A DNA stretch of 37,592 nt from Candidatus Poribacteria bacterium (GTDB lineage Bacteria > Poribacteria > DTPJ01 > WJIO01), in contig WJIO01000111.1 of assembly GCA_014730235.1 (NCBI GenBank), positions 1-37,592 of the forward strand. Reading direction: 5' to 3'. Position 1 is the stretch's first letter. Every line of letters begins with the position of its first letter. Both the position numbers and the translations under genes were made by a program. Shown piece after piece: positions 276 to 25,718 of the stretch. The notes below the pieces were generated by a model. The model did not search any database and was not told the origin of the DNA. It saw only the letters and a program-made list of their open reading frames with translations.

Positions 276-291
276 TGGCATGTTTGTTGCT
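276..291 (+). promoter_or_regulatory. Sigma-54 (-24/-12) promoter
   Basis: TGGCATGTTTGTTGCT matches the sigma-54 consensus TGGCACR-N4-TTGCW, with the invariant GG (277-278) and GC (289-290) separated by exactly 10 bases. Transcription would start near 301, giving a leader of about 70 bases before the PRC-barrel gene at 371. Two almost identical sites precede the genes at 19392 and 25356. Unlike those, no TGTYG-N9-CRACA pair is visible in the 275 bases upstream. Confidence 0.82.
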
Positions 292-370: not shown

Positions 371-1084
371 ATGAAAAAAGGAGCTATTCTCAGAAGTATA
401 AAAGAGTTGTACCGATATGACGTGCGTGCAACTGATGGACATATTGGAAAAGTTGATGATTTCTGCTTCCAAGATGATACCTGGTTGGTAAAGTATATGG
501 TCGTTGACGTTGGGGGATGGCTTTCATATAGAAGGGTTCTAATATCATTTACTTCCCTTAAAAAACCGGATTGGTCAGAGAGGGTTTTTCCGGTTAAATT
601 GACAAAAGAAATGGTGAAAAGCAGTCCACCACTGGATGAAAATAGACCTATATCCAGAGTTTATGAAGATGAACTTAGCGAACATTATGGATGGCCAGAC
701 TTCAGCCCTGTAAAAATCAGGATTGCCTCTATGGAGGCTCGAAAGGAATCAATCCTTAGAAGTGTAAAAGAGGTATTAGGTTATCATATAAATTCTACTG
801 ATGGAGAAGTGGGTCATGTGGGAGATTTTATTATAGATGACAGCAAATGGTTAATACAATATATGGTGGTGGACACAAGAAACATATTGCCGGGTAAAGA
901 GGTGCTGGTATCTGTAAACTGGATCGAGAAGGTAAGCTGGGCAGAATCAAAGGTTTATCTGGACATCACTGAGGAAGAATTGAGAGGCGCGCCGGACTTT
1001 GATTATTCAACACCAGTAAATCGAGAATATGAAATGAGACTATATGATTATTACGGTAGGCCTTTTAATGAGAATGAATTGTAA
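371..1084 (+). CDS. Tandem PRC-barrel domain protein
   Basis: The 237-residue protein has two PRC-barrel modules, about residues 5-110 and 125-235. Each opens with LRS(I/V)KE, then a (T/S)TDG..G.V.DF turn, a W(L)..YMVVD strand and a closing NR.YE.RLYDYYGRP-like tail in the second module. PRC barrels are small beta-barrels found in photosynthetic reaction centre H subunits and RimM, and serve as protein or RNA interaction modules. No signal peptide or membrane segment is visible, so it is probably cytoplasmic. AAGGAATTC lies before the ATG, and a sigma-54 promoter lies 80 bases upstream. Close paralogs are at 26623 and 27435, and a more distant one at 12164. The exact function is unknown. Confidence 0.9.
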   Translation: MKKGAILRSIKELYRYDVRATDGHIGKVDDFCFQDDTWLVKYMVVDVGGWLSYRRVLISFTSLKKPDWSERVFPVKLTKEMVKSSPPLDENRPISRVYEDELSEHYGWPDFSPVKIRIASMEARKESILRSVKEVLGYHINSTDGEVGHVGDFIIDDSKWLIQYMVVDTRNILPGKEVLVSVNWIEKVSWAESKVYLDITEEELRGAPDFDYSTPVNREYEMRLYDYYGRPFNENEL

Positions 1085-19206: not shown

Positions 19207-19245
19207 TGTTGGTTAGCGAACAACAGTGTCGATTGATAACCGACA
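19207..19245. promoter_or_regulatory. Paired enhancer-like palindromes (TGTYG-N9-CRACA)
   Basis: TGTTGGTTAGCGAACAACA (19207-19225) and TGTCGATTGATAACCGACA (19227-19245) are both 19-base palindromes with arms TGTYG and CRACA. Their centres are exactly 20 bases apart, two helical turns. They lie about 104 and 84 bases upstream of the -12 element of the sigma-54 promoter at 19307, the normal place for an enhancer-binding protein. The same pair architecture occurs at 25056-25094. Confidence 0.72.
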
Positions 19246-19306
19246 ATTAACCGCCATCCTGGCTTTTCAAATACATTAATTATAGTCTATACAGCACCAA
19301 ATGGAT

Positions 19307-19322
19307 TGGCATATTTGTTGCG
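19307..19322 (+). promoter_or_regulatory. Sigma-54 (-24/-12) promoter
   Basis: TGGCATATTTGTTGCG has GG at 19308-19309 and GC at 19320-19321 with 10 bases between, as sigma-54 requires. Transcription is expected near 19332, 60 bases before the disulfide oxidoreductase gene. It differs from the site at 25220 by a single base. Confidence 0.85.
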
Positions 19323-19391: not shown

Positions 19392-20738
19392 ATGACAAAG
19401 CATAAATTCGATTTAGTTGTATTGGGAACCGGCCCTGCTGGTAACAATGTAACTTATAAATGTAAAGAAGCGGGATTATCTGTAGCCGTTATTGAATCTG
19501 GTTCTCCTGGTGGTACATGTTCACAGACTGGATGTGATGCAAAGAAACCGTTAGTTAATACAGCAGAAATCCTAGACTGGTTTAACCGCATGCAGGGAAA
19601 AGGTATTGAAGGCAAAGGATATATTGATTGGCAAAAGCTTATAGAATTCAAGCGTGTTTTTACTAAACCTATACCGGGTGATACAAGGGATAAGTTAACC
19701 AGAAATAAAATTCATTTATTTGAGGGAAAACCAAAATTTGTGGATGAAAATACTTTTCAGGTTGGAGAAGAAATAATCTCCGCCAGATGGATTGTAATTG
19801 CTACAGGTGCTCGCACAAAAGAGCTGAATATTCAAGGGGAGGAGATGGTATTAACAAGTGATCAGTTTATGGAACTTGATAAACTACCGGAAGATATAGT
19901 ATTCATCGGTGGGGGATATGTATCCTTTGAGTTTGCGCATGTTGCGGCAAGAGCGGGGGCAGATGTAACCATTATTGAAAAGAATGAGCGGATGCTTGAA
20001 AATTTCGATCAGGATTTGGTTAGATTACTTATTAAGTCCTCTGAAGCTTCTGGAATAGAAGTAGAAAAAGGTAAATGCGTAGATTGCGTCAGAAAGGTAA
20101 ATGAGAAATTTCTGGCGGAATGTAATAAAGGTAGAAATATTTTTGAAGCAGACATATTGGTTCATGGCGCAGGTAGAATACCAAACGTTGATGGTCTTGA
20201 TTTATCCAAAGCCAATATAGAGTTTGGCCCTGATGGCATTCACGTCAATGAATATCTTCAAAGCGTTTCAAATCCGGCGGTCTATTCTGCCGGGGATGTA
20301 TCGGCCACAGATGGGCTTCCTCTAACGCCTGTAGCAACTCTCGAAGGCGCTATTGTAGCCAGTAATATCCTTGAAAATAACAGCAAAACAGTGGACTACA
20401 CAGGCGTTTCAACATCTTTATTCACAGTGCCAGCTTTGGTTTCTGTTGGATTAACAGAGAAGCAAGCAGAGGAGAAAGGTCTGGATGTCACAGTTAATTA
20501 TGAGAATACAAGCGACAAAAAGCTTTATCAACAGTTAGGTGCTGAATATTCTGCATACAAAGTGCTTGTTGATAATAAAACTGAAGATATAGTTGGTGCT
20601 CATATACTTGGGCCTGATGCTTACGAAGTTATAAATATTTTTGCTATAGCTATGAGAGCCGGATTGAATTCTAATGACCTCAAGAAAGCTGTATTAGCAT
20701 ATCCAAGCAAAATATCAACTGTTAAATGGATGTTATGA
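19392..20738 (+). CDS. Dihydrolipoamide dehydrogenase-like flavoprotein disulfide oxidoreductase
   Basis: The 448-residue cytoplasmic FAD/NAD(P) enzyme has the FAD motif GTGPAG at residues 12-17. The redox-active pair is Cys43 and Cys48 in GGTCSQTGCDAKK, with the usual CxxxxC spacing but unusual intervening residues. The second nucleotide-binding fold is FIGGGYVSFEFAHVAAR, and the FAD closing motif is VYSAGDVSATDGLPLTPVA. The C-terminal interface segment reads LAYPSKISTVKWML where classical lipoamide or glutathione reductases have H-P-T-x-x-E; the His and Glu are missing. It is probably a disulfide or quinone reductase of the wider MerA/Lpd group, not a pyruvate-dehydrogenase E3. It is under a sigma-54 promoter. 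Confidence 0.9.
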   Translation: MTKHKFDLVVLGTGPAGNNVTYKCKEAGLSVAVIESGSPGGTCSQTGCDAKKPLVNTAEILDWFNRMQGKGIEGKGYIDWQKLIEFKRVFTKPIPGDTRDKLTRNKIHLFEGKPKFVDENTFQVGEEIISARWIVIATGARTKELNIQGEEMVLTSDQFMELDKLPEDIVFIGGGYVSFEFAHVAARAGADVTIIEKNERMLENFDQDLVRLLIKSSEASGIEVEKGKCVDCVRKVNEKFLAECNKGRNIFEADILVHGAGRIPNVDGLDLSKANIEFGPDGIHVNEYLQSVSNPAVYSAGDVSATDGLPLTPVATLEGAIVASNILENNSKTVDYTGVSTSLFTVPALVSVGLTEKQAEEKGLDVTVNYENTSDKKLYQQLGAEYSAYKVLVDNKTEDIVGAHILGPDAYEVINIFAIAMRAGLNSNDLKKAVLAYPSKISTVKWML

Positions 20739-23334: not shown

Positions 23335-23467
23335 ATATGTGGACTCTATCAATACTATAATTTTGTAGTTTTAAATATTTTATAACTTAATTCAGAATTC
23401 ATGTAGTTTTAAGAAAGATTGGGCACGAACTATAGTGCCTAAAAATCAGAAATTTGGAGGGGTAGAA

Positions 23468-24037
23468 ATGAGGGCTGAGGATAGGGATAACCCAAATAAT
23501 AGTTTTGAAAATCAAGCTCTTATACATAAAGATTCGTTGTATCAATATGCGTTAAGCAAAGTTAAAAATGAAAGTGATGCAAAAGACCTGGTTCAAGAGA
23601 CATATCTTAAAGCATATAAATTCTTTGATACTTTTGAAGATGGTACTAACTGCAAAGCCTGGTTATTTACTATATTAAGGAATACATTTATAAACTTCAT
23701 AAGAAAAGATAAGATGCAACCTGTTCTGGTTTTTATGCAAGATATAAAAGCAAAAGGGTTAGAACCGGCGGGAGGAGAAAATCCTGAAGATCGAATATTA
23801 AAAGACAAATTCGATGATAAAGTAACTGGTGCTATAAATTCACTAAATGAACATTATAAAAATGTAGTTTTACTAGCTGATGTCAAGGGGTTCAGATATA
23901 AAGAAATAGCTGACATAATGAATTGTCCCATAGGAACTGTTATGTCAAGGTTATACAGAGGGCGAAAGTTACTCAGGGAAAAGCTTGAGGATTATGCGTT
24001 AAATAATGGTTATATAACACAGAAAAGTAATAGTTAA
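23468..24037 (+). CDS. ECF-type RNA polymerase sigma factor
   Basis: The protein is 189 residues from ATG 23468, which has TTGGAGGGG upstream; a GTG at 23435 lacks a site. Region 2 is DAKDLVQETYLKAYKFFDTF through WLFTILRNTFINFIRK, the usual core-polymerase and -10 recognition helices. Region 4 is HYKNVVLLADVKGFRYKEIA, then CPIGTVMSRLYRGRKLLREK, the -35 helix-turn-helix. It has the ECF (group IV) architecture. No anti-sigma gene is adjacent, so control must be elsewhere or transcriptional. It is a likely regulator of some of the stress genes here, but that is inferred from position. Confidence 0.93.
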   Translation: MRAEDRDNPNNSFENQALIHKDSLYQYALSKVKNESDAKDLVQETYLKAYKFFDTFEDGTNCKAWLFTILRNTFINFIRKDKMQPVLVFMQDIKAKGLEPAGGENPEDRILKDKFDDKVTGAINSLNEHYKNVVLLADVKGFRYKEIADIMNCPIGTVMSRLYRGRKLLREKLEDYALNNGYITQKSNS

Positions 24038-24276: not shown

Positions 24277-24903
24277 ATGGAAAATAAAGTAAACTTCCTA
24301 CAAAATGAATCGGAACTCCTGCGGGATATTCAGTCTGATGATAGAATGATAGATCGTCAAACCTTGGAATCCATAATATTGTTGGCTGTTGAACTGGCTC
24401 GGGAGGGTAGAGAAGGCAGGAAAATCGGAACTATGTTTGTAATATCTGATTCAGAGGAAACATTAAAACGTTCCAGATGCCTTATACTCGATCCGTTGTG
24501 GAATCATCCGGAATCAAAGAGAAATATCCTTGATTCAAACTTGCGTGAAACGGTTAAAGAATTATCCCAGTTAGATGGAGCTTTTATAGTTTCAAGAGAG
24601 GGTATTGTATTATCAGCTTGCAGGTATATAAATGCCTCTTCTGAGGGTGTTAATATTCCCTTAGGTCTTGGTAGTCGACATATGGCAGCAGCATATATCA
24701 CAAAAGAAACTAACTCTACAACCGTTGTAGTTTCTGAGTCCTCAATTGTTCGGGTCTTTAATAATGGTGATATAGTCGCAGAGATAATACCCGAATTATG
24801 GTTATTAAGAAGACATGGACTTCATATTGAAGGAGCTTATTCGCTTCGTAGTAGTGATGATGTGACTGTGGCAAGTAAAAAAAGTCAGGAATCAGAAGAT
24901 TAA
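24277..24903 (+). CDS. Diadenylate cyclase (DisA_N domain) protein
   Basis: The 208-residue protein makes, or is related to enzymes that make, c-di-AMP from two ATP. The DAC motifs are present: DGA at residues 100-102 in LDGAFIVSREG, and the GSRH loop at 132-135 in LGLGSRHMAAAYITKETNST. The canonical RHR is RHM here (Met136). The N-terminal helix LESIILLAVELAREGREGRK and IGTMFVISDS are typical of stand-alone DAC proteins lacking the DisA DNA-binding part and the CdaA membrane helices. It is probably soluble. No strong ribosome binding site is seen. Neighbours are the sigma factor upstream and superoxide reductase downstream. Confidence 0.85.
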   Translation: MENKVNFLQNESELLRDIQSDDRMIDRQTLESIILLAVELAREGREGRKIGTMFVISDSEETLKRSRCLILDPLWNHPESKRNILDSNLRETVKELSQLDGAFIVSREGIVLSACRYINASSEGVNIPLGLGSRHMAAAYITKETNSTTVVVSESSIVRVFNNGDIVAEIIPELWLLRRHGLHIEGAYSLRSSDDVTVASKKSQESED

Positions 24904-25055: not shown

Positions 25056-25094
25056 TGTTGGCTTAAACACAACTGTGTTGTGTTTAAGCCAACA
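25056..25094. promoter_or_regulatory. Paired enhancer-like palindromes within a perfect inverted repeat
   Basis: Two 19-base sites, 25056-25074 (TGTTG-N9-CAACT) and 25076-25094 (TGTTG-N9-CAACA), have centres 20 bases apart and are mirror images. They therefore lie inside a perfect 25-base inverted repeat (25049-25073 and 25077-25101, loop TGT). The -12 element of the sigma-54 promoter is about 148 bases downstream of the nearer centre. Spacing and half-sites match the pair at 19207. The inverted repeat could instead be read as a terminator of the cyclase gene, but no T-run follows. The surrounding gap (24904-25355) has no supported gene. Confidence 0.7.
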
Positions 25095-25219: not shown

Positions 25220-25235
25220 TGGCATGTTTGTTGCG
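25220..25235 (+). promoter_or_regulatory. Sigma-54 (-24/-12) promoter
   Basis: TGGCATGTTTGTTGCG has GG at 25221-25222 and GC at 25233-25234 with 10 bases between. Transcription would begin near 25246, leaving a leader of about 110 bases before superoxide reductase. Confidence 0.85.
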
Positions 25236-25355: not shown

Positions 25356-25718
25356 ATGGCAAGATTTGGCGATGTAATTATTCCTCCTGAAGAAGAAGGA
25401 AAAGAAAAACATGTACCTCATATCCAGGCCCCAGACAAAGTAAAAGCCGGAGAATCTTTTGAATTAGAGGTAGTCGTTGGTAAAGAAGTAGCTCATCCCA
25501 ACACTATAGAACATCATATTAAATGGATTCAGGTTTACGCAAAGCAGGAGGGTTCTAGACCTGTGGTTCATGTCGCTACGCTTGACATGGGTCCAACCTT
25601 TGCTGATCCTAAAGTAACTTTTACGGCTATGCTTGAGAAAACATCCACCATCTACGCTCTGGAATATTGTAATATTCATGGTGTATGGGATAATTCTGTA
25701 AAAGTAGAGGTAGAATAA
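25356..25718 (+). CDS. Superoxide reductase (desulfoferrodoxin centre II / neelaredoxin type)
   Basis: The 120-residue cytoplasmic non-haem iron protein reduces superoxide to peroxide without making oxygen. The ligand set of the square-pyramidal iron centre is complete and correctly spaced: Glu17 and His19 in KEKHVPH, His47 and His53 in AHPNTIEHHIKW, Cys105 and His108 in EYCNIHGVW. It lacks the N-terminal rubredoxin-like centre I domain, so it is a one-iron type. AAGGAGATTG precedes the ATG. It has a dedicated sigma-54 promoter with enhancer sites and is followed by a stable hairpin, so it is monocistronic. This gene argues for an anaerobic or microaerophilic host. Confidence 0.95.
   Translation: MARFGDVIIPPEEEGKEKHVPHIQAPDKVKAGESFELEVVVGKEVAHPNTIEHHIKWIQVYAKQEGSRPVVHVATLDMGPTFADPKVTFTAMLEKTSTIYALEYCNIHGVWDNSVKVEVE

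Follow-up and report, generated by a model that had tools for sequence, protein, structure and literature searches.

The closest described counterparts of the element reported here are the NorR and NorR2 regulons of Proteobacteria (norVW, hcp-hcr, hmp), in which a sigma-54 activator (EBP) with GAF, AAA+ and HTH domains serves detoxification genes through tandem dyad enhancers. NorR sites follow a 19-bp frame in which G5-T6 and A14-C15 are the most conserved positions, and NorR2 uses GATGT-N7-ACATC sites, two in tandem, ahead of sigma-54 promoters (Rodionov et al. 2005, PMC1274295). NtrC-type two-component EBPs have the order REC-AAA+-HTH and use two dyads upstream of the -24/-12 element. FleQ enhancers reportedly lie downstream of RpoN sites (Jyot 2002, as listed in PMC10723142). 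In anaerobes, the peroxide regulons that contain superoxide reductase and rubrerythrin are under PerR-type control. We found no description of sigma-54 control of these two enzymes in anaerobes in the literature searched, nor any paper there that combines a TGTCGN motif with sigma54 and a binding site; a TGTTG or TGTCG consensus is likewise absent from the text on the Desulfovibrio sigma-54 regulome.

The window studied here, the whole stretch of 37,592 nucleotides, comes from a member of the uncultured phylum Poribacteria. It contains a 39-bp element of two dyads before a disulfide reductase gene and a second such element before a superoxide reductase gene (Table 1). From the observed site family, its spacing, the promoter class, the association of the two, the targets and the intact motifs of an EBP, we infer binding, activation, a redox signal and the identity of the EBP. 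We put at about 0.8 the probability that the element is the sigma-54 enhancer of a small stress regulon, with the EBP encoded on contig C190 or a paralogue as the likeliest activator.

Table 1. Features of the window, numbered from its first letter, and the nine pairs of the genome with their targets. Distances between pair and promoter run from the pair centre to the T of TGG.
Feature	Position	Strand	Sequence, target or relation
Enhancer site a (putative)	19207..19225	.	TGTTGGTTAGCGAACAACA
Enhancer site b (putative)	19227..19245	.	TGTCGATTGATAACCGACA; approximately the reverse complement of site a (14/19)
Sigma-54 -24/-12 element	19307..19321	+	TGGCATATTTGTTGC; class TGGCAYRTTTGTTGC; fits TGGCAYN5TTGC exactly
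Pyridine-nucleotide-disulfide oxidoreductase gene	19392..20738	+	448 aa; flavin enzyme; target gene
Second element, site a	25056..25074	.	TGTTGGCTTAAACACAACT; one mismatch
Second element, site b	25076..25094	.	TGTTGTGTTTAAGCCAACA; near-perfect dyad with site a (18/19)
Sigma-54 element	25220..25234	+	TGGCATGTTTGTTGC; 145 bp from pair centre
One-iron superoxide reductase gene (desulfoferrodoxin ferrous-iron domain)	25356..25718	+	EKHVP, HPNTIEHH and CNIHGVW ligand motifs; target gene
Sixth sigma-54 element of the class	276..290	+	TGGCATGTTTGTTGC; 276 bp from contig start
PRC-barrel-like protein gene	371..1084	+	After the 276 element; likeness to other PRC-barrel proteins
Pair	19207		Disulfide reductase; 81 bp upstream of element
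Pair	25056		Superoxide reductase; 145 bp upstream of element
Pair	C248		Rubrerythrin; 120 bp upstream of element
Pair	C116:641		Hsp20, then BON-domain gene; 281 bp upstream of element
Pair	C101		Unknown 226-aa protein; 292 bp upstream of element
Pair	C190:2187		PRC-barrel; 288 bp downstream of weaker sigma-54 element
Pair	C227:22702		CHRD/spondin-domain protein; 256 bp downstream of weaker sigma-54 element
Pair	C116:17827		34 nt before ferredoxin gene, after cytochrome P460-like gene
Pair	C190:5500		Overlaps EBP gene stop codon; contig end after

The first-pass annotation had read two 19-base palindromes at 19207, and both agree with the DNA letter for letter. Their centres lie at 19216 and 19236, exactly 20 bp apart, which leaves one base between the 19-mers. 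The distance of 84-104 bases that it gave to the -12 is also correct, the GC of TGGCATATTTGTTGC being about 104 and about 84 bp from the two centres, whereas its promoter spacing of TGGCA-N7-TTGC has to be amended to TGGCA-N6-TTGC (GG-N10-GC). The disulfide reductase has the redox disulfide as a CxxxxC motif, CSQTGC (GGTCSQTGCDAKK). Its best PDB match is 8k40 (E 4e-112), and it lies above the cut-off of none of the curated subfamilies. The same half-sites, N9 gap and 20-base phasing had been reported at 25056; the element there is real, but its first half-site ends in CAACT, with one mismatch. No blastn similarity beyond the motif is found between the two copies in the window at E 1e-3, which bears out the proposal of shared recognition rather than duplicated DNA. 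Directly before the superoxide reductase enhancer is a gene with a DisA-like diadenylate cyclase domain (DAC; 24277-24903), so that a link of the stress island to c-di-AMP is possible. A gene for an ECF-like sigma factor with Sigma-70 regions 2/4 (23435-24037) is also found among the stress genes. The genome has a second superoxide-reductase-like gene (G000:C423:8410-8658, L153), at which the pattern scans found no pair.

The search for the pair covered the genome (5.53 Mb in 451 contigs, 92% complete). With up to three mismatches, the scan returned eight pairs against two for a reversed-pattern control, and a variant of the pattern contributed a ninth, C248:5803. For the exact pair, the expectation in this genome is about 6e-5 occurrences, and two are observed. 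A 39-column matrix built from the nine pairs scores them at 28.9-38.8 bits when each is left out in turn; within the 436 kb of fetched loci the runner-up scores 15.6 bits, and shuffles attain 8-14 no more than a couple of times. The expectation, the control scan and the matrix scores together rule out a chance origin. The genome-wide statements are based on pattern scans, and the matrix was run on the 436 kb of fetched loci only, so nine pairs is a lower bound for the genome. All nine have the 20-bp spacing, and the exact core occurs at no other spacing for gaps of 0-30 bp. Over 60 bp, the C101 and C190:5500 pairs show 82% similarity, and one may be a duplicate of the other. Among other genomes, the exact pair has six matches in 257 Gb of GTDB, where about three are expected by chance. 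There is no pair with up to one mismatch in 38 related genomes, and the single same-order genome has pair matches at control level only. Superoxide reductase is absent from the 23 relatives searched, and a phylogenetic footprint is thus not possible.

The genome has one rpoN gene (RpoN DNA-binding domain, E 1e-60), 33 matches to PF00158, of which about 26 are strong, and 52 occurrences of TGGCAYN5TTGC against 11 for the reversed pattern (28+24 versus 5+6). As the first-pass annotation had anticipated, the pairs lie near sigma-54 sites: seven of the nine have a -24/-12 element of the consensus type no more than 300 bp away, against an expectation of about 0.05 (chance about 6e-15), and all five promoters with a pair upstream read TGGCAYRTTTGTTGC, with a spacer, RTTTG, that occurs in 6 of the 52 sigma-54 elements (hypergeometric 2e-6); these statistics were framed post hoc and are better taken as effect sizes than as tests. 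In all seven cases the sigma-54 element aims at the same gene as the pair. The sixth element of this private class is in the window itself, near the contig start. The 275 bp of contig available upstream of it hold no pair, and its pair may lie beyond the contig end; the PRC-barrel-like gene that follows is a possible further target. The targets are redox and stress genes, namely superoxide reductase, rubrerythrin, disulfide reductase, Hsp20-BON, PRC-barrel and ferredoxin; the first-pass annotation had named redox or envelope genes as targets that would support a regulon.

In four of the nine cases no class promoter lies downstream of the pair: two pairs follow a weaker sigma-54 element at 256-288 bp, a third is 650 bp away from an element with two mismatches, and the fourth runs up to a contig end. 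At C190:2187 and C227:22702 the element precedes the pair, which places the pair in the leader. At the contig end, the pair (L009 5500-5538) and the EBP gene's stop codon overlap, which makes the left half-site coding. Several regulon members carry a palindromic MITE-like repeat (GGYTCTTCCGGGTTCAGTGTGGT ... TGTCATTCCTGCGAAAGCAGGAATGACA), which has inserted either in the leader or between pair and promoter, and contig C190 also ends in this repeat; its copies are at 11055-11165 in L010, 1965-2090 and 5580-5702 in L009, and 7280-7410 in L012.

When the 18 sites are oriented from outer to inner they read YGTYGNNTNNNANACAACA, with half-sites YGTYG-N9-CRACR. Position 5 is G and positions 17-18 are AC in all 18, position 8 is T in 16 and position 12 is A in 17. 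Site b tends toward the reverse complement of site a, and the 39 bp thus form one larger dyad. This symmetry could also be that of an RNA or terminator hairpin in which the two sites pair in the transcript. The two halves of an element do match each other better than they match halves from other elements (p 0.0002, or 0.016 when the two near-perfect copies are excluded), and two elements fold into near-perfect hairpins of -26 kcal/mol. Two of the nine, however, fold no better than shuffles (z -0.1 and 0.0) with half-sites and phasing intact, five lie upstream of their own promoter and are therefore outside that transcript, and no T-run follows 25056 on the + (gene) strand. The two elements that fold no better than shuffles and the missing T-run speak against a terminator or RNA hairpin as the shared function, which was rejected, and we consider this reading very improbable. 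The extra matching between halves is presumably explained by quasi-palindrome correction during replication. A different view is that the pair serves a distinct repressor as its operator, one similar to HrcA, PerR or CRP/FNR, and is found near sigma-54 elements because the same genes are under double control. Three of the four pairs without a class promoter downstream are 31-34 nt before start codons, an operator-like place, and the N9 between half-sites recalls CIRCE. The CIRCE consensus is TTAGCACTC-N9-GAGTGCTAA. The half-sites here are YGTYG/CRACR and do not follow this consensus of the CIRCE/HrcA operator; they differ from the PerR and FNR boxes as well. Five of the six private-class promoters have a pair 81-292 bp upstream, a distance beyond the reach of simple repression, and the 19-bp frame with G5/C15 partly fits the sites of NorR-type EBPs (PMC1274295). 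A repressor operator is therefore unlikely, and we favor an enhancer.

If the pair is an enhancer, the question is which EBP uses it. Contig C190 encodes a 659-aa EBP of the order REC-GAF-AAA+-HTH, with a Fis-like HTH and with GAFTGA, the Walker motifs (including Walker A) and the phospho-acceptor motif intact. Its gene is flanked by two of the nine pairs, one 1.3 kb before it and one at its 3' end, a linkage that suggests, but does not prove, a connection between the two. Two paralogues, on C259 and C361, are 55% identical to it, and all three have the recognition helix GMNRSWL. We suggest that the C190 EBP or one of these two paralogues is the likeliest activator of the pairs. In a tree of EBPs, the C190 protein groups with an EBP of the same-order genome (93/91) and C259 with C361 (89/87); these groupings do not single out the regulator. 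An EBP with 53% identity to that of C190 is encoded in the same-order genome, which has, however, neither pairs nor superoxide reductase. The regulon could also be real and its activator another of the roughly 26 EBPs, for example C259, C361 or a NorR-like protein that the assembly lacks. The identity and the common helix of the paralogues are in line with this, as is the exact pair that adjoins a true NorR gene in a Desulfosarcina contig. Yet pairs are next to an EBP gene only on C190, all EBPs of the genome score below the NorR cut-off, and the C259 protein carries GAFTSA for GAFTGA. We give another activator somewhat less than even odds.

We propose the following mechanism for the C190 EBP or its paralogue. 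Each of the two adjacent 19-bp dyads would take one dimer of a single EBP, and as the dyads are 20 bp, or two helix turns, apart, both would be on the same helix face. On activation the dimers would be side by side and seed a hexamer, the intervening 81-292 bp of DNA would loop, and ATP hydrolysis would open the sigma-54 polymerase complex at TGGCAYRTTTGTTGC. The output would be a small regulon that clears superoxide and peroxide and guards thiols, proteins and the envelope. More tentatively, and as a conjecture that may well be wrong, superoxide reductase and rubrerythrin could in this uncultured phylum have a REC-GAF EBP with a NorR-like site as their master activator, in place of a PerR- or OxyR-type regulator and through a private sigma-54 class; judging from the pairs before start codons, this EBP might also act from downstream or as a repressor.

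The switch is of a known type, while the site, the promoter class and the target set look new. The NorR and NorR2 regulons have in common with it the GAF, AAA+ and HTH architecture, tandem dyads and detoxification targets; their 19-bp frame with G5 and C15 is matched in part, and the C190 EBP aligns to NorR residues 7-506. In the NorR frame, the 18 sites (outer to inner) have G5 in 18, A14 in 15, C15 in 14 and T6 in 3, position 6 being mostly G here and not T. The C190 protein differs from NorR in its added receiver domain and scores 361 bits against the NF003451 cut-off of 476, which no EBP of the genome exceeds, so a true NorR was rejected as a candidate. The targets are superoxide reductase and rubrerythrin, not nitric oxide reductase. 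We take the GAF iron-ligand positions for NO sensing to be the LPDPFDG stretch and a downstream Cys; these, present in the Desulfosarcina NorR, are not conserved in the C190, C259 and C361 proteins. The element thus appears to work like the NorR tandem enhancers, with an EBP that by its score falls outside the NorR family. One of the six exact matches in other genomes, a TGTTG-N9-CAACA pair in the Desulfosarcina MAG (L076 1923-2100), has on one side a NorR gene, which scores 668 bits against the cut-off of 476, and on the other a divergent hemerythrin-like gene, whose sigma-54 element is 83 bp from the pair centre. This is an independent hint that the same geometry is used by a GAF-type EBP elsewhere.

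The other described systems are more distant. NtrC-type EBPs share the REC-AAA+-HTH order, the intact phospho-acceptor and the two dyads upstream of -24/-12, whereas the protein here has an added GAF domain, the half-sites are unrelated and the targets are stress rather than nitrogen genes. FleQ offers an earlier example of EBP sites on the downstream side of the sigma-54 element, the arrangement seen at C190:2187 and C227:22702, though protein, sites and targets are different. PerR-type regulons contain the same detoxification enzymes under a metal-sensing repressor, in contrast to the activation by sigma-54 and an EBP proposed here. The element is defined sharply enough for sequence alone to single out nine sites, six promoters and one family of candidate activators in a lineage that is uncultured. 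They point to a NorR-type site geometry outside Proteobacteria that would serve defence against reactive oxygen rather than nitric oxide.
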